Positions 5,527 through 19,839 of a stretch of DNA of 34,352 nt are shown piece by piece. The stretch is taken from the NCBI GenBank assembly GCA_003021755.1, contig PXQZ01000018.1:9246-43597 (forward strand). Reading direction: 5' to 3'. The stretch comes from Halobacteriales archaeon QH_8_67_36. Lineage in GTDB: Archaea; Halobacteriota; Halobacteria; Halobacteriales; Haloarculaceae. Position numbers and translations under genes: made by a program. How positions within the stretch are numbered: position 1 is the first letter of the stretch; each line of letters starts with the position of its first letter. A model generated the notes under the pieces. The model did no database searches. It was not told the origin of the DNA and worked only from the letters and a program-made list of their open reading frames with translations.

Positions 5527-5805
5527 ATGGATACGGTCCTCTGGCAGACGCTTGCCGGCACACGCGGGGGACCGAACCGCGCCCGTGTCCTTCGTGCGCT
5601 GGACGACCAGCCGCGCAACGCCAACCAGCTCGCCGACGACCTCGACCTGGCGTACAACACGATTCGGCACCATCTGGAGGTCCTCGAAGAGAACGGTGTC
5701 GTCACCAGCAGCGACGCCAGCTACGGCGTCATCTACCTGCCCAGCGAGCGGGCACGGGACAACTGGGACACGGTCGAACAGATACTCACACAGGTGGACG
5801 ACTGA
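5527..5805 (+). CDS. ArsR-like winged-helix transcriptional regulator
   Basis: In-frame ATG at 5527: MDTVLWQTLAGTRGGPNRARVLRALDDQPRNANQLADDLDLAYNTIRHHLEVLEENGVV, typical winged helix. Confidence 0.85.
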   Translation: MDTVLWQTLAGTRGGPNRARVLRALDDQPRNANQLADDLDLAYNTIRHHLEVLEENGVVTSSDASYGVIYLPSERARDNWDTVEQILTQVDD

Positions 5806-5856
5806 TATGAACGCACCATCACGGGCCAGGGTCGTCGACGGGACTCGGGAGGCACC

Positions 5857-6141
5857 ATGAGTCTCGTCCTCGACGCCGCGAGAATCGCCGCCGCTGTCAA
5901 CATCCTGCTGCTGGGTGGTATCATCGCCATCTGGGTCCGGACGTATCGGGAGGTACGCGCGCCGATGACGTTGGGCTCTATCGTGTTTGCGGCCTTCCTG
6001 CTGGCCGAGAACGCCGTCGCGCTGTACTTCTATTTCAACGCGCCCGCCGGGATGCCGGCGCTGGCGGTCGAAGTGATGGCGGTCCTCCAGATTCTCGAAG
6101 CCGTCGGTATCGCCGCGCTGAGCTACGTCACCTGGAAGTAG
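5857..6141 (+). CDS. Small membrane protein (94 aa)
   Basis: Three predicted hydrophobic helices; directly downstream of the HTH gene. Confidence 0.75.
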   Translation: MSLVLDAARIAAAVNILLLGGIIAIWVRTYREVRAPMTLGSIVFAAFLLAENAVALYFYFNAPAGMPALAVEVMAVLQILEAVGIAALSYVTWK

Positions 6142-6191
6142 TTCCGTCCGAGACGACGCGCTTTTGCGGCCCAGTGCCCTATCGAACGCCA

Positions 6192-6704
6192 ATGACCGAC
6201 GTTCCCGACGACGTTGCAGACGTGTTCGACGCCCGCGAAACCTTCGTCCCCAGTGGCAGCGGCTACGTGGTCGAGACGACGAGCTTCGAGGGCCACGTCA
6301 CCGCGAGCGAAGGCAAGCAGTGGCGCACCGACTACGAGGTCACCGTCCGAGCGCCGTCGCTACAGGCCGCGACGGTCGACGAGGTCGGCCCCGCGGTGCG
6401 TGACGGCTGGTTCGAAACGCTGGAACGCCGCCTCGAAGACGCTCCCAAGTCCACCCGCGTCGCCGTCGACCTCGACGAGTACACGGTCGAAGCAGACGAC
6501 GAGGAGGTCGTCGTCACCTACCGCTTCAGCCTCGGTGGCGAACGCGAGGCCGCCGACGTGGCCAAGACCTTCGTCGAGTACGTCGAAGGGACCTACGTCG
6601 AGGGTATCGTTCCCGGCTACGAGTACGTCGGCGTCGTCGCCGACCTCATGAGCGCTGCGAGTTCCGGTGGCAGTGAGGGGAGTCGCGGCGGGACGCCGCT
6701 GTAG
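6192..6704 (+). CDS. Conserved haloarchaeal protein (DUF5813-like)
   Basis: In-frame ATG at 6192 (MTDVPDDVADVFDARETFVPSGSGYVVETTSFEGHVTASEG); typical haloarchaeal codon use. Family assignment from memory. Confidence 0.7.
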   Translation: MTDVPDDVADVFDARETFVPSGSGYVVETTSFEGHVTASEGKQWRTDYEVTVRAPSLQAATVDEVGPAVRDGWFETLERRLEDAPKSTRVAVDLDEYTVEADDEEVVVTYRFSLGGEREAADVAKTFVEYVEGTYVEGIVPGYEYVGVVADLMSAASSGGSEGSRGGTPL

Positions 6705-6770
6705 CGGTCGAGCCGGAGCGTACGGCGAGCGAAGCGAGCCACCGGCCGTCTTTCGCCAGGTTTTTGAAGT

Positions 6771-6814
6771 ACGGGGTTCCCGCAGCGCCGCGTAGCGGCG
6801 CGAGGAAACCCCGT
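6771..6814. terminator. Nested hairpin between convergent genes; possible bidirectional terminator
   Basis: Outer arms ACGGGGTT/AACCCCGT, inner arms GCGCCGC-GTA-GCGGCGC; flanked by T5 on the + strand (6761-6765) and T5 on the - strand (6824-6820). Confidence 0.5.
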
Positions 6815-6833
6815 GCTATAAAAAGTGGGTTCC

Positions 6834-7064
6834 CTAGTCCATCGCGATGTACGTCTGCGTGGACTCGACGCCCTCGATGTCCTGGACATGTGTCGCGGCG
6901 GCGTCCTTGACGGCGGCGGGTGTGTCGACGCTCACCTTGACGATGAGGTCGACGTCGCCGGCGACGATGTGGGCCTCGGTAACGCCGTCGATACCCTCGA
7001 TTTCGCCCCGCAGCCGGTCGGCATCGCCGGTGTGGGCCTTGACCATGACGTAGGCGGTGACCAC
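6834..7064 (-). CDS. Stand-alone Lrp/AsnC ligand-binding (RAM) domain protein
   Basis: 76 aa, MVTAYVMVKAHTGDADRLRGEIEGIDGVTEAHIVAGDVDLIVKV; no HTH. Confidence 0.88.
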   Translation of the reverse strand: MVTAYVMVKAHTGDADRLRGEIEGIDGVTEAHIVAGDVDLIVKVSVDTPAAVKDAAATHVQDIEGVESTQTYIAMD

Positions 7065-7066
7065 GT

Positions 7067-7753
7067 TCAGGCACCTCCCAGCGCCTTGGAGGGGCCGCTC
7101 TCACCCACGACGATGCTCCGGACGTCCGAGAGCGCGTCGAAGTCGGCCAGCACGACCAGGTGGTCGCCGGCGTCCAGCGTCTCGTCGGGGTCGGGGACGT
7201 CCAGTGGGGCGTCGCTTTTCCCGTGGGCGAGCAGTCTGGTGTCGGCGGGCAGTTCGAGTTCGGAGAGCGAGTAGCCTTTCATGGGTGCGGAGTCGGTGAT
7301 GGTGAACTCGACGAGCTGGAGGTGCTGGGCGATGTCGGCGATGGCGCGGATGTTCCCGCCCAAGAGCGCGTTCTTGGCGGCGATGGCGCCGAGTCGCTCG
7401 GGGTAGATTATCTCGTCGACGTCGGACGCGTAGCGGCGGTATATCTCCTCGCGGTAGTCCTCGTCGATGCGCATGACGGTGCGACAGCCGTACTGCTTGC
7501 CGATCATGCAGGCGACGAAGTTGTCGTTCAGGTCGCCGGTGAGCGCACCGATGGCGTCCGCCTCGGCCAGGTTCGCCGATTCTAGCGTCTCTTCGAGGGC
7601 CCCGTCGCCGTCGAGAACGTCGAAGCCGGCGGCCCGTGCCCGCTCGACGGCACCCTCGTCGCGCTCGATGAGTGTGACGTCGTGTCCACTCTCCCGCAGT
7701 ACCCGCGCGGTCCGAAGTCCAACACGGCCGGCACCCACGATAACGTATAGCAT
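7067..7753 (-). CDS. TrkA family potassium uptake regulatory protein (TrkA-N + TrkA-C)
   Basis: Start MLYVIVGAGRVGLRTARVLRESGHDVTLIERD (Rossmann RCK) with a TrkA-C-like C-terminus. Confidence 0.9.
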   Translation of the reverse strand: MLYVIVGAGRVGLRTARVLRESGHDVTLIERDEGAVERARAAGFDVLDGDGALEETLESANLAEADAIGALTGDLNDNFVACMIGKQYGCRTVMRIDEDYREEIYRRYASDVDEIIYPERLGAIAAKNALLGGNIRAIADIAQHLQLVEFTITDSAPMKGYSLSELELPADTRLLAHGKSDAPLDVPDPDETLDAGDHLVVLADFDALSDVRSIVVGESGPSKALGGA

Positions 7754-7853
7754 AGACGGCAGTATGCGACGGGGACGAATAAAAGTACCCCGCACGCCGC
7801 TTTGCCTACCGTCGGTCGGCCGCCGGAAGTCGTCAGTCGCGCGAACGTTTTTC

Positions 7854-7880
7854 ATACCGTGGTACGTTATACCACAGTAT
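7854..7880. promoter_or_regulatory. Imperfect dyad (candidate operator) overlapping the start codon of the downstream gene
   Basis: ATACCGTGGTACGTTATACCACAGTAT: arms ATACcGTGGTA / TACCACaGTAT with a 5-nt spacer; ATG starts at 7879. Confidence 0.5.
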
Positions 7881-8109
7881 GGCATCCGCGTTCATCATGC
7901 TAAAGACGGTCGCCGGCAAGTCCGAGGAACTGCTCGACGCGGTCCGGAGCTCGGCGGGCATCACGGAGGCACATATCGTCGCGGGGCAGTACGACATCAT
8001 CGCCGAGGCCACCGGCGAGGAAGTGTACGACGTGATGCAGTCGGTATCGACACGCGTGCGTGACCTCGACGGCGTCGCCGACACACGAACCTACATCTGT
8101 CTGGAGTAA
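7879..8109 (+). CDS. Stand-alone Lrp/AsnC ligand-binding (RAM) domain protein
   Basis: 76 aa, MASAFIMLKTVAGKSEELLDAVRSSAGITEAHIVAGQYDIIAEA; paralogous to 6834..7064. Confidence 0.88.
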   Translation: MASAFIMLKTVAGKSEELLDAVRSSAGITEAHIVAGQYDIIAEATGEEVYDVMQSVSTRVRDLDGVADTRTYICLE

Positions 8110-8280
8110 CCGACACCGGCCAGTGCGGGACCATCGACCACGGGAGCAGTCGGGTGACCCAGTCGCCCGACGACCCCGGGAGCCGTCTTCGAGGTGAACG
8201 GTGGAACCGTGATCGACCGTGACCGGAGACTCGTCGAGCAGTTCCGACACGGCAAAGAGTCTCGCCGCCATACGGACGGT

Positions 8281-8595
8281 ATGGTCAGCGCCGTCGCCGT
8301 CGCCGGGCTGGTCGTCATCGTGCTTGTCAACAGCGCGGTGACGGCACTGATGACACGCTTCTTCAGGGTTCGCCTCCACACTCGGTGGGGCGGGCTACTC
8401 TACTCGCTGTTGCTCTGTCCGCTCGCGCTTCTCGTCCTCGGCGTCGTGCTGTCGGTGCCCGTCGGCCCGTTCATCGACCTCGGCACGATCACGTTCCTGG
8501 CGCTGGTGGTCGTGCTCCCGCTAACGTTGGGGATGACGTTCGACTACGTCTGGATGCCCTCGCCCGACGACGTCGAACTGCCGACGTCGACCTAG
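8281..8595 (+). CDS. Small membrane protein (104 aa), conserved haloarchaeal type
   Basis: ATG at 8281; hydrophobic helices [54 protein letters not shown]. Confidence 0.75.
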
Positions 8596-9179
8596 TCGAG
8601 AACCGCGTCCCGGACCTGTCGGTAGACCGTATCGGGCCCCTGTGTGGCGTCGACCCGAACGAAGCGGTCGGGGTCGGCGTCGATGAGCCGTTCGTAGTTC
8701 ACCCGAACGTCGGCGAGGTAGTCGGCCGTCTCGAACTTGTTCGTGGCGCCGCTGCGTCGGGCGGCCGTCTCGGGGTCGAGGTCGAGATACACCGTGCGGT
8801 CCGGAGGCCGGGTCCAGGGGTCGTGGACCCGCCTGACGTAGGCCAGCGGGTCGTCGAAGCGGTCGCTGTCGGCGAGCGTGGCACCCTGGTAGGCGTATCG
8901 TGAATCGGCGTAGCGGTCGGAGATGACAAGCGACCCGTCGTCGAGTGCCGGCCGGACGGTGTCGGACAGGTGGGCCGCGTGGTCGGCAGTGTAGAGGAAC
9001 AGCTCCGCCAGCGAGTCGGCGCCGTCGTCCTCGATGGAGCGCATGACCGCCTCGCCGTACCAGCTGTCGGTCGGTTCGCGGGTGAACACGGTGTCGGCTG
9101 GCAGGGCGTCGTCGGCCCGCAGCCGTTCCCACACCGTCGTCTTCCCGCTCCCGTCGAGCCCCTCCAGCGTCACGAGCAT
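8592..9179 (-). CDS. tmk: Thymidylate kinase
   Basis: [21 protein letters not shown]-loop; [16 protein letters not shown] and [16 protein letters not shown] motifs. Confidence 0.93.
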
Positions 9180-9354
9180 ACCGGTGTGTCGGTGGCCGGG
9201 TACGTAAGCGCCCCGAACCCCGATACGGACTGCCGAGCCGTTTCCCGGTCCACGACACCCGGAGTCGAGGATACCCGAAAGAGACTCGGACAGTCCGTCC
9301 GCCCCCAGCTGGTTTCGCCATATCTTTACAGTCTCTCGGCGGAAAGGAGGGCGT

Positions 9355-10257
9355 ATGGACGTACTTGTAGCCGGCGGGACTGGCTTCGTTGGACAGTATC
9401 TCTGCCGGGAACTCGACGATAGAGACCATGACGTGACCGCCCTGTCACGGAACCCCCACGACGCCGAGCTCCCCGACGGCGTCATCCGGAAAGAAGGTGA
9501 CGTGACCGACTACGACAGCATCGAAGGCGCCTTCGAGGGCCGGGATGCCGTCGTCTTCCTCCCCGCGCTCTCGCCCCTATTCAAACCCGACGGCGGCGAC
9601 GAGATGCACGAGGTAGTCCATCTGGGCGGCACCGAGAACGCCGTCCGCGCGGCCGAGGAACACGACGTGGACCGCTTCCTCCAGATGAGCGCGCTGGGCG
9701 CGGACCCTGCCGGTGCGACCCACTACCTCCGCGCGAAAGGGAACGCCGAGGCAGTCGTGAAACAGTCCGATCTCGACTGGGTCATCTTCCGCCCGTCGGT
9801 CGTCTTCGGCGACGGCGGCGAGTTCGTCTACTTCACCAAGCGGCTGAAACAGATATTCGCGCCCGCAGTCCCGCTCTACCCGCTCCCGGGCGGCGGAACG
9901 AAGGCCCACTTCCAGCTCATCTGGGTCGAGGACCTCGTGCCGATGCTCGCAGACGCGCTGGAAGACGACGACCACGTCGGCCAGACCTACGAGGTCGGCG
10001 GGTCCGAAACGCTGAGTCTGCGGGAAGCGACGGAACTGGTCTTCGAGGCTGAGGGCACGTCCATCACCATCGTCCCCCTGCCGATGCCGCTGGCGAAGAT
10101 CGGGCTCCCCGTACTCGGCTCTCTCGGGTTCCCGATGGGGAGCGACCAGTACGAGGGGCTGGACTTCGACAATACGCCGACGACCAACGACGTCGAGTCG
10201 TTCGGTCGCGACCCCGCGTCGCTCCGGTCGTTCCGCTCGTATCTCGGCCTCTCATAG
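9355..10257 (+). CDS. NAD(P)-binding epimerase/dehydratase (complex I NDUFA9-like)
   Basis: [32 protein letters not shown] Rossmann motif; [20 protein letters not shown]. Confidence 0.88.
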
Positions 10258-10428
10258 TCACCCGGCCGCGAACGGAGGTCTGTCGCCGTCTGTCGATAGT
10301 CTGGACTGAAAACGCTCCGAGTACGTCAGATATCTTTTATTTCTTCGTAGAGCTTTCATCGATGAGATTTGGGCAAAAAACTTATACGCACTATCCTACT
10401 TACCACTTTCAACCGGAGAACCATATCA

Positions 10429-11607
10429 ATGAAACTCGCGATGATCGGCTTCGGGCAGGCCGGTGGCAAAATCGTGGATAAATTCCTCGAGTACGACGAG
10501 AAGACGGGCTCGGGAATCGTCCGCTCGGCCGTGGCGGTCAACACGGCCAAAGCTGACCTGCTGGGGCTAGAACACATACCGGAAGAGAACCGGGTGCTCA
10601 TCGGCCAGGCCCGCGTCAAGGGCCACGGCGTGGGCGCCGACAACGAACTCGGGGCCGAAATCGCCGAGGAGGACATCGACGAGGTCCAGGGGGCCATCGA
10701 CAACATCCCCGTCCACGAAGTCGACGCGTTCCTCGTCGTCGCCGGCCTCGGTGGCGGGACCGGGTCCGGTGGGTCGCCGGTCGTCGCGAAACACCTCAAA
10801 CGCATCTACACCGAGCCCGTCTACGGGCTCGGCGTCCTGCCCGGCAGCGACGAGGGCGGCATCTACACGCTCAACGCCGCCCGGTCGTTCCAGACGTTCG
10901 TCCGCGAGGTGGACAACCTCATGGTGTTCGACAACGACGCCTGGCGCCAGACCGGCGAGTCCGTCGAGGGCGGCTACGACCACATCAACGAGGAGATCGT
11001 CCGCCGCTTCGGGGTCCTCTTCGGCGCTGGCGAGGTCGAGGCCGGCGACAACATCGCCGAGAGCGTCGTCGACTCCTCGGAGATAATCAACACGCTCGAC
11101 GGCGGCGGCGTCTCCACCGTCGGCTACGCCTCCGAGGACGTCGAGGTCAGCTCCGGGGGCGGGCTGCTATCGCGGTTCAAAGGCGACAGCGGCGGCGACG
11201 ACGGCATCGACACGGCCAACACCACCAACCGAATCACGTCGCTGGTCCGCAAGGCCGCGCTCGGGCGGCTGACACTGCCCTGCGAGATCGAAGGCACCGA
11301 GCGCGCCCTGCTCGTGATGGCCGGGCCGCCGGAGCATCTGAACCGGAAGGGTATCGAGCGCGGCCGCAAGTGGCTCGAGGAACAGACCGGCTCCATGGAA
11401 GTCCGCGGCGGGGACTACCCGACCAACGCCCCGAAGGTCGCCGCTTCGATCCTACTGGCCGGCGTCCACAACGTCCCCCGTATCAAGGAGCTCCAGCAGG
11501 TCGCCATCGAGGCACAGGACAACATCGACGACATCCGCCAGCAAAGCGAAGATAACTTGGAGAACTTGGTTGAAGACGATGAGGATGAACTCGATCCACT
11601 ATTTTAG
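10429..11607 (+). CDS. cetZ: CetZ-type tubulin/FtsZ family protein
   Basis: MKLAMIGFGQAGGKIVDKFLEYD and tubulin signature GLGGGTGSGGSPVVAKHLK; T7-loop region and overall layout as haloarchaeal CetZ. Confidence 0.93.
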   Translation: MKLAMIGFGQAGGKIVDKFLEYDEKTGSGIVRSAVAVNTAKADLLGLEHIPEENRVLIGQARVKGHGVGADNELGAEIAEEDIDEVQGAIDNIPVHEVDAFLVVAGLGGGTGSGGSPVVAKHLKRIYTEPVYGLGVLPGSDEGGIYTLNAARSFQTFVREVDNLMVFDNDAWRQTGESVEGGYDHINEEIVRRFGVLFGAGEVEAGDNIAESVVDSSEIINTLDGGGVSTVGYASEDVEVSSGGGLLSRFKGDSGGDDGIDTANTTNRITSLVRKAALGRLTLPCEIEGTERALLVMAGPPEHLNRKGIERGRKWLEEQTGSMEVRGGDYPTNAPKVAASILLAGVHNVPRIKELQQVAIEAQDNIDDIRQQSEDNLENLVEDDEDELDPLF

Positions 11608-12370
11608 GGCGACCGTTGCACTGCTTTGCGTCGTTGGGCTGGTGGCCGTTGCGGGCACAGCGGGTGCCTTCACCGTCTCCCCGGAGGGCACTGTCCCCAA
11701 CGAAACCGCCGTCGGCAGCGAGGTGTCGGTGACGTACGTCATCGAGGACCCGTACGACGGGCCCCCGAACGAGTACACGATAGAGGGCGAGACCGAACTG
11801 GAGAACGTAAGCTGGACCGTCGAGGTGTTCGACCAGGGTGATAGCGTCGACCAGACGACGTACGGCGACCAGTCGTTCAGCCAGTCCATGGACCGCGACG
11901 GGGACCAGAACGGTGACGAGGTACGCATCACGCTCGAAGGGACCGTCCCGCCCGTCGAGAACTACACCTACGAGCCACGGGAGAACTACAGCCTCGTCGA
12001 GTTCGCCCGAGTGACCGGGAGCAACGAGAACGAGTTCCGGAACGACTCCGCGCACCACTACACTGAACAGAGCCGCGAGGCCCGCCAGGCCATCGACGAC
12101 GCCGGGACGGCTATCGACGAGGCCGGCGGCAACAGCGAGGCCGAGAACCTCCGTACCGGCGCCATCTCAGCCTACGAGAACGACAACTTCGAGAACGCCA
12201 TCTCACTCGCGAACCAGGCCCGGAACACCGCCGAAGAGGCCCAGCAGAGCCAGCAGACCACGCAGACGCTGCTGTACGCGGCCGGCGCCGTCGTGCTCGT
12301 TCTCCTGCTCGGTGGCGGCGGGTACTACGCCTACAGCCAGTCTCAAGCGGACGATTACAGCAAGCTGTAA
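11579..12370 (+). CDS. Membrane protein with signal peptide and C-terminal TM helix; overlaps cetZ
   Basis: N-terminal hydrophobic signal ([22 protein letters not shown]), helical region rich in E/A/Q/N, C-terminal TM ([22 protein letters not shown]). Start 11579 or 11585. Confidence 0.8.
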
Positions 12371-12981
12371 TGCGACTCGTCGTCCCCGTCTCGGGGTCCG
12401 ACCCGAAAACACGCCTCTCCCCCGTTCTCACGTCCGACGAGCGCCGCGATTTCACCGAGGCGATGCTTGCAGACGTGCTGACTGCGCTCCGTGCGGCCGA
12501 CCACAGTCCCGAGGTCGTCGCGACGGCGCCGGTCGACTGTGACGCACCCGTCACGGTCGACGAACGCGGCCTCGACTCGCTCGTCAACGACCTGCTGGGG
12601 GAGACTGATGGCGAACTCGCGGTCGTGATGGCCGACCTGCCGCTGCTCGGACGGTCGTCCGTCGAACGGTTGTTCGAGCCCGATGCCGACGTCGTACTGG
12701 CGCCCGGACTGGGCGGGGGGACCAACGCCTTCGTTTGTCGCCATCCCGACTTCCGCGTGGACTACCACGGGGCGTCCGTTCGGGACCACCGCCACATCGC
12801 CCGCGAGGCCGGGGCGACCGTCGCCGAGGTGGACTCGCGACGGCTGGCGACGGACATCGACGAACCGTCCGACCTCGCCGAGGTCCTGCTCCACAGTGAC
12901 GGGGCCGCCGCCGACTGGCTCCGCGACGGCGGCTTCGAACTCCTCGCTGACGACGGCCGTGTGACCGTCGAGCGGGCGTGA
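12370..12981 (+). CDS. cofC: 2-phospho-L-lactate guanylyltransferase (coenzyme F420 biosynthesis)
   Basis: [33 protein letters not shown] and [17 protein letters not shown]; 1-nt overlap with the upstream gene. Confidence 0.9.
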
Positions 12982-13032
12982 GCGGTCGCCGGAGGCGAGA
13001 CGCTTACGGTCCTCTGGCCCGAACCGGCGAGC

Positions 13033-13608
13033 GTGCAGTACGAGCGGCTCACGAAGGGTATCGCGGCCGTCTTCGGCGTCCTCACAGCCGTACTGACCGT
13101 GGTGGGCATCCTCTCCAGTCCGGCCGTGCTCTTTCTGGCGCTGATGTTCGGGGCCTCGACGTATCTGATGTACTACCATCTCAGTGGGAAGATGGCCGCG
13201 AGCGTCTACGAGCGCGTCGAGCGACGGGCGGCGACCGACGGACGCGGCGCCCGCCGGGGTGACGGGCGCGGCGGCTTCGGCGCCGGACCGCGCGAGGAGT
13301 GGGAGCCGCCCCGCGACGGACGGGCGCGCCGCGCTGCGGAGCGCGTGCGACAGGAGCGAGCGCGTCGCCAGCAGGCCCGGGGCGCACAACAGCAAGCGGG
13401 ACGACGACGCCGGCGCGTCCAGCAGCGCTCCGGTCCCAGCCCGGCAGAGGCCTACGACCGACTCGACCTGGACCCCAGCGCCGACGAGAGCGCGGTCAAG
13501 GCGGCCTACCGCGAACGGGTCAAGGAGACCCATCCGGACACGGACGGCGGAAGCGAACGCGAGTTCAAGCGGGTGCAGGCGGCCTACGAGACGCTCACCG
13601 ACGACTGA
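13033..13608 (+). CDS. Membrane-anchored J-domain protein
   Basis: GTG start at 13033; two hydrophobic helices, basic linker, C-terminal J domain (AYDRLDLDPSADESAVKAAYRERVKETHPDTDGG). The HPD tripeptide is present. Confidence 0.88.
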   Translation: MQYERLTKGIAAVFGVLTAVLTVVGILSSPAVLFLALMFGASTYLMYYHLSGKMAASVYERVERRAATDGRGARRGDGRGGFGAGPREEWEPPRDGRARRAAERVRQERARRQQARGAQQQAGRRRRRVQQRSGPSPAEAYDRLDLDPSADESAVKAAYRERVKETHPDTDGGSEREFKRVQAAYETLTDD

Positions 13609-13648
13609 GGACCGCAACGACCAAATCCGTGCCGACAGCAGAGAACGT

Positions 13649-14326
13649 ATGACCGAGACGCCGCCGTTGCTGGTCGATATCGACGGAACGCTCACGGATG
13701 AATCCCGAGCTGTCGACCCGCACGTGTTCCCGGTGCTGTCGGAGTGGCCGGAACCGGTCGTCGTCGCGACGGGCAAGGCGATGCACTACCCCATCGCGCT
13801 CTGTGAGTTCGTCGGCATCGATTACACGGTCATCGCGGAGAACGGCGGAGTGGTGTTCATCGAGGCGACCGACTCGCTCCATATCGAGGGCGACAGGGCC
13901 GCGTGTCTCGCGGTCGCCGAGGCGTACCGCGACATGGGCCACGAGATTGGCTTCGGCGATGTCGACCTGGCGAACCGGTGGCGCGAGACCGAGGTGGTCG
14001 TCGACATCTCCCAACCCGTGGAGCCGCTGCGACGCCTCGCCGAGGAGCACGGACTCGAACTTCTGGACACCGGCTTCGCCTACCACGTCACCGACACCCG
14101 TACAAACAAGGGGACCGGACTGGAGACGGTCTGTGCGGAACTGGGGCTGGAGCCGACGGCGTTCCTCGCGGTTGGCGACTCCGTCAACGACGCCGAGGTG
14201 TTCGACGTGGCGGGGGAGTCGGTGGCCGTCGCCAACGCAGACGAGACGGCTCTCGCCCGTGCCGACCGCGTGACCGAGGCGAGATACGCCGACGGCTTCC
14301 TCGAAGCGGTCGAGCCGTACCGATAG
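13649..14326 (+). CDS. Phosphoglycolate phosphatase (HAD superfamily, archaeal)
   Basis: ATG at 13649: MTETPPLLVDIDGTLTDESRAVDP ... KGTGLETVCAELGLEPTAFLAVGDSVNDAEVF. Confidence 0.88.
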   Translation: MTETPPLLVDIDGTLTDESRAVDPHVFPVLSEWPEPVVVATGKAMHYPIALCEFVGIDYTVIAENGGVVFIEATDSLHIEGDRAACLAVAEAYRDMGHEIGFGDVDLANRWRETEVVVDISQPVEPLRRLAEEHGLELLDTGFAYHVTDTRTNKGTGLETVCAELGLEPTAFLAVGDSVNDAEVFDVAGESVAVANADETALARADRVTEARYADGFLEAVEPYR

Positions 14327-18113: not shown

Positions 18114-18420
18114 GGTTCGCATTGCGCCCGGGACCCTCCTAACGCTACTGTTTGTTTGGCTCTCTCGTGTCGATCTCGACGGCCGCGACGCGTCCGAGAC
18201 CGCTACCGAGGACACTGGCGTAGTCCCACTGGACCGGCGGCTGCCCGAAACGGAGCTGGACACGTACGTCCACGAACCGACATCGATCGACTGGCGGACG
18301 AATTCGACGATATCGCAGACCTGGTGAGTAATACGGATTATTGTAGCGACGTACCGGTAGTCGCCGACCCCGCAGGCGCTATCCGGAAACAACCCGCTTA
18401 GGAGTTAGGTTTTGAGAAGA

Positions 18421-18442
18421 TGCGCTGGCTGGGATTTGAACC
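18421..18442 (-). repeat. Exact 22-nt duplicate of the tRNA-Gly 3' end (att-like tRNA fragment)
   Basis: TGCGCTGGCTGGGATTTGAACC at 18421-18442 is identical to 18581-18602 within tRNA-Gly. Confidence 0.85.
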
Positions 18443-18509
18443 GGACTCAGACGTTCCTGGTTACTCACTCCGTTCGTTTCCTGGGCTGCGACTGATAGGG
18501 TTCAAATCC
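18432..18509. repeat. Inverted repeat GGATTTGAACC ... GGTTCAAATCC
   Basis: 11-nt perfect arms at 18432-18442 and 18499-18509. Confidence 0.75.
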
Positions 18510-18580
18510 AGAAGCGATTTCACGACTCACGGGTGCGAGTACACGCTACGCGGCGCTCGCGGGAAAGTTCGTCGTAGAAA

Positions 18581-18652
18581 TGCGCTGGCTGGGATTTGAA
18601 CCCAGGTTGTGACCATGGCAAGGTCACGTGATACCAACTACACTACCAGCGC
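18581..18652 (-). tRNA. tRNA-Gly(GCC)
   Basis: Reverse complement GCGCTGGTAGTGTAGTTGGTATCACGTGACCTTGCCATGGTCACAACCTGGGTTCAAATCCCAGCCAGCGCA: 7-bp acceptor stem, GCC anticodon, T loop TTCAAAT. Confidence 0.95.
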
Positions 18653-18744
18653 TCACTTCGTTCGCCCCGCCCTCACGACCATGTGAGGTCGCTCGGTACC
18701 GGTGCGCACGTCGCCCCGCTGCATTCCGGACTGGCGGGGGTGAT

Positions 18745-18755
18745 GGTAAAAAGCC
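18745..18755 (-). promoter_or_regulatory. Candidate TATA box for tRNA-Gly
   Basis: - strand GGCTTTTTACC about 95 nt upstream of the mature 5' end. Confidence 0.4.
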
Positions 18756-18927
18756 TTGCGTTTCACAGGGAAGTTCGGGGGCAACGTGGGTATCGTGTTG
18801 TCACCCGGTACTGACACCGCGGTCACATCGACGACTTTCGGAAGCGGCAATCGCCGTGTGTGCCGTTCGCACGCGACGGGCCTCGAAGGGGCGTGTGAAC
18901 GCGTCCCATCGCACGCGCGAAGCGGGG

Positions 18928-18937
18928 TCTTTTTACC
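18928..18937 (+). promoter_or_regulatory. Candidate TATA box for the SPOUT-r-protein operon
   Basis: + strand GGGTCTTTTTACC upstream of the ATG at 18994; shares CTTTTTACC with the divergent tRNA promoter. Confidence 0.45.
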
Positions 18938-18993
18938 GTAGGGGCGGAGTAGTATCGCTACAGTCTAGTGGCGCGACGTGGAAGCGTCACGGC

Positions 18994-19839
18994 ATGACGA
19001 CCAGCGTACTCGTGCCCGACTCCCTCACACGGGAAGCCGAGGACCGACGCGAGGCGACTCGCAAACTGGGATACGTGGCCCGCGCGGCCACGACGTTCCA
19101 GGTCGACCGGCTGACGGTGTTTCCGGACCCAGACGGAGCCGGCAAACGGGAAGACGGGTTCGTCGAAACCGTGCTGCGGTACGCCGCGACGCCGCCGCAC
19201 CTTCGAAAGGAGATGTGGGGCAAGCGGGACGAACTAGAGTACGTCGGCGTCCTGCCGCCGCTCCGCGTGCGTTCACAGACCGGCTCCGGATCCGAGGGTT
19301 CGGGGTCGTTAAGACAGGGAATCGTGACCGAGGTCGGAGCTGATGGGCGCGTCCGGGTCAATTGCGGTATGCAACACCCGATCTCCCTCCCCGTTCCGGA
19401 CGGACTGGACGCGGGCGAGGGGGAGCGCGTGACCGTCAGGGTCTCTTCGCGACGGCCGGTCCGGGCGAAACTCGTCGACCACCCCACGCCGGGGTTCGAC
19501 GTCGTTTCCGCGGACCTCAACAGGGCACTCTCGCGTGACGACGCCGGACTCACCATCGCGTCATCGCGATACGGTGAGCTGGCAACGACTCGTCGGCTGG
19601 GCCAACTGGCCCACCGACGGGACACCGAGGGCGGCATGACAGTCGCTTTCGGGGCACCCGAGCGTGGGTTACCGTCCATACTCGACGTGGACCCGGACTC
19701 CGTCCGGGGAGACCAGCACAACGACGAATCCACAGGGTTCGACCGCTGGCTGAATACGGTTCCGAACCAGGGCAGCGAGGTCGTGCGAACTGAAGAAGCG
19801 ATGTTCGCCTCCCTCGCCTGTCTAACCCTCACGGAGTAA
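18994..19839 (+). CDS. SPOUT-family RNA methyltransferase (putative RNA uridine N3 methyltransferase, COG2106-like)
   Basis: ATG 18994, MTTSVLVPDSLTREAEDRREATRKLGYVARAATTFQVDRLTVFPD; conserved position 5' of uL3 in haloarchaea. Confidence 0.85.
   Translation: MTTSVLVPDSLTREAEDRREATRKLGYVARAATTFQVDRLTVFPDPDGAGKREDGFVETVLRYAATPPHLRKEMWGKRDELEYVGVLPPLRVRSQTGSGSEGSGSLRQGIVTEVGADGRVRVNCGMQHPISLPVPDGLDAGEGERVTVRVSSRRPVRAKLVDHPTPGFDVVSADLNRALSRDDAGLTIASSRYGELATTRRLGQLAHRRDTEGGMTVAFGAPERGLPSILDVDPDSVRGDQHNDESTGFDRWLNTVPNQGSEVVRTEEAMFASLACLTLTE

Follow-up and report, generated by a model that had tools for sequence, protein, structure and literature searches.

Downstream of the tRNA-Gly(GCC) gene in the window (the whole stretch of 34,352 nucleotides that was analysed) lies what is probably an array of a single unit, from a family of tRNA-anchored hairpin units found throughout the haloarchaeal class; the unit would have been inserted site-specifically at the T-loop of the tRNA gene. 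The probability of this reading, which draws on comparison of sequences, is put at roughly 0.55. No description of tRNA-anchored hairpin arrays was found in the open-access literature, and the family is apparently undescribed.

The tRNA-Gly locus and the anatomy of the unit

The tRNA-Gly(GCC) gene, on which ARAGORN and Rfam agree, has its 3' end duplicated downstream. A sequence-only reading of the locus had reported an exact duplicate of 22 nucleotides in the same orientation. This was confirmed, and the repeat extends to 23 nucleotides when the A at 18420 and 18580 is included (18420-18442 and 18580-18602). The two copies are separated by a 138-bp spacer that contains no gene. With up to three mismatches allowed, the repeat occurs in the window at these two positions and nowhere else, and it has no match in 100 dinucleotide-preserving shuffles; the duplication is far above chance expectation.

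On one side the tRNA is flanked by genes for a cyclohydrolase (MCH) and a thiamine-binding protein; the genes on the other side encode an RNA methyltransferase and ribosomal proteins L3 and L4. None of the genes around the tRNA is an intI-type integrase gene beside the attachment site, and no element gene, integrase included, lies between the two repeats, a stretch of 138 bp that is occupied by a conserved hairpin unit. An Rfam scan of the window left the spacer unmatched; its sole results were the tRNA and an unrelated leader. The latter is a match to RF03135 (L4-Archaeoglobi ribosomal leader) at 19340-19439 on the plus strand (76.6 bits, E 2e-14). It lies upstream of the L3 gene and inside the predicted RNA methyltransferase frame (18628-19839), an odd position for a leader. 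The features of the locus are listed in Table 1.

Table 1. Features of the tRNA-Gly(GCC) locus in window coordinates. Covariance-model E-values are rough.
Feature	Position	Strand	Evidence
tRNA-Gly(GCC) gene, anchor of the array	18581..18652	-	ARAGORN; Rfam RF00005, 65.9 bits
tRNA 3' end, T-loop start through 3' acceptor strand, direct repeat copy 1	18581..18602	-	exact repeat
Spacer half with palindrome GCGAGCGCCGCGTAGCGTGTACTCGC	18510..18580	-	RNA fold -21.8 kcal/mol, z -1.4
T', inverted copy of tRNA T-loop segment, GGATTTGAACC in tRNA direction	18499..18509	-	inverted repeats I3 and I7; match to local T-loop in related arrays
Hairpin core	18443..18498	-	covariance model R1, 81.4 bits, E 4.8e-21 (the sequence is itself a seed of the model); compensatory changes in P2
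Displaced second copy of tRNA 3' end (T2 and acceptor), end of unit	18420..18442	-	exact 23-nt repeat

Read in the direction of the tRNA, the spacer begins with TTTCTACGACGAAC and continues with the palindrome, T', a 56-nucleotide core, and the displaced tRNA 3' end. T' forms an 11-nucleotide perfect inverted repeat with 18432-18442 of the displaced copy. Both this inverted T-loop copy and the status of the spacer as a conserved family had been missed by the sequence-only reading. Units in general are about 80-160 bp in length, carry no genes, and have the same order of parts: palindrome, T', hairpin core, and a copy of their own tRNA from the T-loop to the 3' end. In the palindrome half the hairpin form recurs between units while the sequence varies, comparable palindromes being present in related units. 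Folded as DNA, the palindrome half of the window unit (18510..18580) is not distinguishable from shuffles.

The hairpin is formed by T', the core, and the displaced T-loop copy together. It is composed of an 11-bp outer stem (P1), an internal loop, an inner stem (P2, 18492-18495 with 18447-18450), a T.T mismatch (18491/18451), two C-G pairs (CG/CG), and a variable tip. In the seed alignment P2 covaries with Watson-Crick pairs only. Its two variable pairs read C-G, G-C, or U-A and C-G, A-U, or G-C in 31 aligned relatives, with no G-U. In these related sequences, whose changes are non-independent events, 97% of the cells in the core structure are paired, and its covariation score is 0.213, compared with 0.077 when shuffled; the signal is lost when partners are slid.

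T' tracks the T-loop of the local tRNA. It is GGATTTGAA behind most tRNAs, GGATTCGAA behind tRNA-Gln, GGAATTGA behind tRNA-Lys and tRNA-Gly(TCC), CGATTTGAA behind tRNA-Tyr, GGACTCGAA behind tRNA-Asn, and GAATTTGAA behind tRNA-Thr(GGT). At 83 sites where the displaced copy has diverged by mutation, T' still has the tRNA version; 11 apparent matches of T' to the mutated copy trace to four loci in which the alignments look spurious. The match between T' and T-loop therefore dates from insertion and is not maintained later. Selection for the P1 stem after insertion was rejected, there being essentially no compensatory change once the displaced copy mutates.

Distribution and turnover among haloarchaeal genomes

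Matches to the hairpin model R1 are present in 94 of 98 Halobacteria genomes, with 1-35 matches in each. A second search with the model, across the phylum, covered about 24 Halobacteria, 22 of which had matches, and about 124 genomes outside that class, which had none. The window's own genome, an incomplete assembly of 1.7 Mb (58% complete), has 10 matches, most of them beside tRNA-Gly, Gln, Leu, Arg, and Lys genes. Genera named by a pattern scan across the genome collection include Halorubrum, Halosimplex, Halorussus, Halorarius, Haloarcula, and Natrialba. The core was found behind nearly all tRNA types.

Association with tRNA genes was counted in three complete genomes of another genus. With a limit of 1 kb, a tRNA gene on the same strand precedes 88 of 96 matches, which stand 33-628 nucleotides downstream of it. 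The other eight follow displaced tRNA 3' fragments or a tRNA-Pro that the Rfam search had not detected. Dispersed insertion independent of tRNA, as in MITEs, was not found among the 96. In two genomes, copies of a tRNA gene's own 3' end occur within 700 nucleotides at 38 of 80 tRNA genes (59 copies), compared with 22 of 743 control trials that used the 3' ends of other isotypes. Of 148 pairs of similar units in different species, 131 are at the same tRNA, where 12% would be expected.

At the level of DNA similarity, the window locus and loose pieces of its spacer were found in 59 of 60 relatives, many of these matches being to the tRNA itself. Behind tRNA-Gly, one unit is present in many congeners, two in some, and none in some. 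An insert of about 50 nucleotides, rich in palindromes (CACCGACGGAC..GTCCGTCG..GCAATCGC..GCGATTGCTCACT), follows GGTTCAAA within the displaced T-loop copies of the congeners' tRNA-Gly loci L015, L016, L018, L022, and L027 and splits these copies; it is another small repeat nested in the array.

Clean pairs of less and more occupied loci were found between two congeneric species (G032 and G130) at tRNA-Asn, Arg-CCG, Gly-GCC, and Ser-TGA. In the first three, the more occupied locus has one additional unit and one additional 22-nucleotide repeat, exact or near-exact, and Ser-TGA has two extra units. At tRNA-Asn, the less occupied species has the tRNA followed by GAATTTCTG; the more occupied species has the tRNA, a 137-bp unit, an exact 22-nucleotide copy, and then GAATTTCTG. 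The sequence-only reading had allowed that the window site might still be a live attachment site, and sites of this kind are evidently live, congeneric species differing by whole units exactly there. Its interpretation was upheld in part only; the true integrated elements in related loci have other boundaries.

The extra units are proximal to the tRNA in 4 of 4 loci, few on which to rest the polarity of unit gain, and the flanking shared units are 98-99% identical. Decay points the same way, the last copy being more decayed than the first in 12 arrays and the reverse holding in one (sign test, p = 0.003). In the tRNA-Ser and tRNA-Asp arrays of Haloarcula, differences arise at the distal end about as often as at the proximal end. 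The preferred, though not the sole, reading is proximal growth, as deletion between the 22-nucleotide repeats can give the same pattern. Mean unit identity is 0.61 within one array and 0.57 between different tRNAs. Because units within an array are barely more alike than units behind different tRNAs, the arrays do not seem to be mainly tandem duplications.

Viral and plasmid origins were both rejected. The inverted-repeat pattern has no match in the viral contig collection, and the core patterns have 13 + 1 matches there, without flanking T-loop arms, which on inspection were judged to be chance. The plasmid search gave one weak match only, on a Natrinema megaplasmid, a replicon of 987 kb.

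Insertion at the T-loop and competing explanations

Site-specific insertion is proposed because the boundaries run exactly from the T-loop to the tRNA end, the tRNA is intact, the inserts carry no genes, and the inverted copy is T-loop-specific. The unit would be inserted at the T-loop by site-specific recombination, the incoming unit bringing a new tRNA 3' end and the old 3' end being pushed downstream. Serial insertions would stack the array, with the newest unit adjoining the tRNA. With less confidence, the recombining form may be a single strand folded so that T' and the T-loop copy pair and rebuild a double-stranded site, as in attC. Recombination of such a folded strand with the tRNA T-loop is favoured because the plan of the hairpin resembles that of attC. 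In many units (for example L250 unit 1 and L217 unit 1) a near-identical core stands behind different tRNAs with only T' altered to fit the local T-loop; the mechanism of the switch is not apparent, and simple recombination of tRNA-specific circles does not explain it.

A tyrosine recombinase acting in trans would carry out the recombination. A XerA-like tyrosine recombinase is present in 96 of 96 haloarchaeal genomes, the window's included, and nearly always in single copy. Tyrosine recombinases as a type are the leading candidate for the enzyme, and the XerA-like protein is one candidate among them. The gene also occurs in genomes without hairpin matches; restriction to array-bearing genomes was rejected for it, as it is universal. 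A second group of tyrosine recombinases, with a cysteine-rich insert, was detected by BLAST in five of five array-rich genomes (G062, G046, G134, G130, and G060; loci L325, L330, L339, L327, L326, and L332) and was not seen by BLAST in four genomes without hairpin matches. It was not adopted as the array enzyme, since its members adjoin other tRNA boundaries in the cases inspected.

The chance that the array works like a cassette array is put at about one half. The fuller proposal is a haloarchaeal integron-like system in which dozens of tRNA genes would serve as platforms, gene-less cassettes would be recombined as folded single strands, T-loop complementarity would set the target, and arrays would record the order of insertion. 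This is offered tentatively, the odds being judged to run against it.

Conventional double-stranded integration is an unlikely alternative. The units would then be mini-elements, minicircles integrated by attP x attB recombination at the T-loop through the integrases of resident elements, with T' as an arm-type site only. A repeat from the T-loop to the 3' end is a common outcome of T-loop crossover, and integrases adjoin arrays in G062 and G130. However, the integrase elements inspected use other boundaries, and an arm site has no obvious need for a T' that fits each T-loop exactly. In L044 (G038), an 8-kb insert with a Phage_integrase gene (5708-13850) lies between tRNA-Gly(TCC) and its old hairpin array; the integrase gene is beside the tRNA, and the displaced tRNA fragment starts in the anticodon arm. 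The integrase-domain ORF of L044 overlaps another reading frame. In L332 (G062), the integrase is beside an acceptor-only fragment of 13 nucleotides, a length like that given for SNJ2 (PMC8371274). The true integrated elements in related loci adjoin hairpin arrays that were already there.

Less probable still is a structured RNA, in which the units would be trailers transcribed by read-through, with hairpins that serve tRNA processing, termination, or regulation. Nearly all units are on the tRNA strand, and the window hairpin folded as RNA has a z of -2.7. On the tRNA-sense strand G-U exceeds A-C at the model pairs by 80 to 12, a count of non-independent events dominated by two columns, which keeps an RNA role open. 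On the other side, about half of the tRNA genes have no units, orthologous genes differ between species, and no Rfam family matches the unit. The lack of compensatory change in P1 also speaks against this explanation, as does the folding of the window hairpin as DNA, where the strand opposite the tRNA folds at least as well (-14.7 kcal/mol versus -12.3 kcal/mol for the other strand).

Slightly more doubtful again is an origin through homology only: short repeats of the T-arm and acceptor would recombine homologously or by slippage, template switching would generate the palindromes, and no dedicated recombinase would take part. The 22-nucleotide repeats permit deletion and duplication, and near-identical neighbouring units are present in some arrays (L011, L039, and L076). 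Most neighbouring units, however, are unrelated in detail, the boundaries are precise, and the conserved structure of the core recurs behind nearly all tRNA types.

Very improbable is the sequence-only reading's explanation, an att-like scar left by a larger element that was excised or reduced to 138 bp. A direct repeat of the tRNA 3' end fits, such elements are present in relatives, and the repeat does stand as the mark of a site-specific event at that end. The spacer, however, is no remnant of a mobile element: it is a conserved hairpin unit that recurs behind many tRNA genes across Halobacteria, and the viral and plasmid searches are against the explanation.

Comparison with known systems

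The attC sites of integrons are imperfect hairpins with an outer stem carrying the recombination sequence, an inner stem, internal loops, and a variable tip, and IntI recombines the folded single strand (PMC8946536). Integron cassette arrays with attC have also been reported in archaeal MAGs (PMC9668308), in a paper from which the words Halobacteria and haloarchaea are absent. The hairpin arrays are like integrons in having a single anchor site and an attC-like hairpin at the end of each unit. They may also be alike in gaining new units next to the anchor, for which the four proximal loci and the decay gradient speak and against which the distal differences stand. The P1/P2 architecture and its compensatory changes fit the attC-like plan, a similarity of plan only. 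The arrays differ from integrons in their tRNA anchor, in having no neighbouring intI and no gene cassettes, and in having many anchors per genome. The integron core-site consensus is GTTRRRY; in the shared sequence GTTCAAATCC of the hairpin units, GTTCAAA breaks it at the fourth base. Membership among integrons was rejected on the missing intI, the missing GTTRRRY core, and the tRNA anchors.

If the proposed reading holds, arrays at about half of the tRNA genes in the counted genomes would explain many 3'-end duplications that are now attributed to proviruses. The arrays may amount to a second cassette system, one built on tRNA genes and using single-strand recombination sites, or they may represent a novel class of non-autonomous element that targets specific tRNAs. 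It also becomes possible to test directly whether the units shield the tRNA genes, draw in integrases, or are wholly selfish.

With the integrative elements that target tRNA genes through archaeal tyrosine recombinases (PMC8371274), the arrays share a tRNA 3'-end repeat in the same orientation and an intact tRNA. They differ in that the insert is about 0.1 kb and gene-less, about half of the tRNAs in the counted genomes are affected, and an inner inverted T-loop copy is present. The small mobile repeats of Haloquadratum, MITEs and PATEs (PMC3119063), are likewise short, non-coding, palindromic, non-autonomous, and haloarchaeal. Those elements are dispersed, whereas the hairpin units lie behind tRNA genes and duplicate 22 nucleotides of the local tRNA gene.

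In CRISPR arrays and in casposon insertion, a repeat is duplicated with each insertion beside a fixed anchor, and the oldest units are distal. The hairpin arrays resemble both in the repeat duplicated at each proposed insertion, the fixed anchor, and the distal position of the presumed oldest units, and their unit order could act as a strain-level record. They differ in what is inserted, which is a conserved hairpin family and not foreign sequence.
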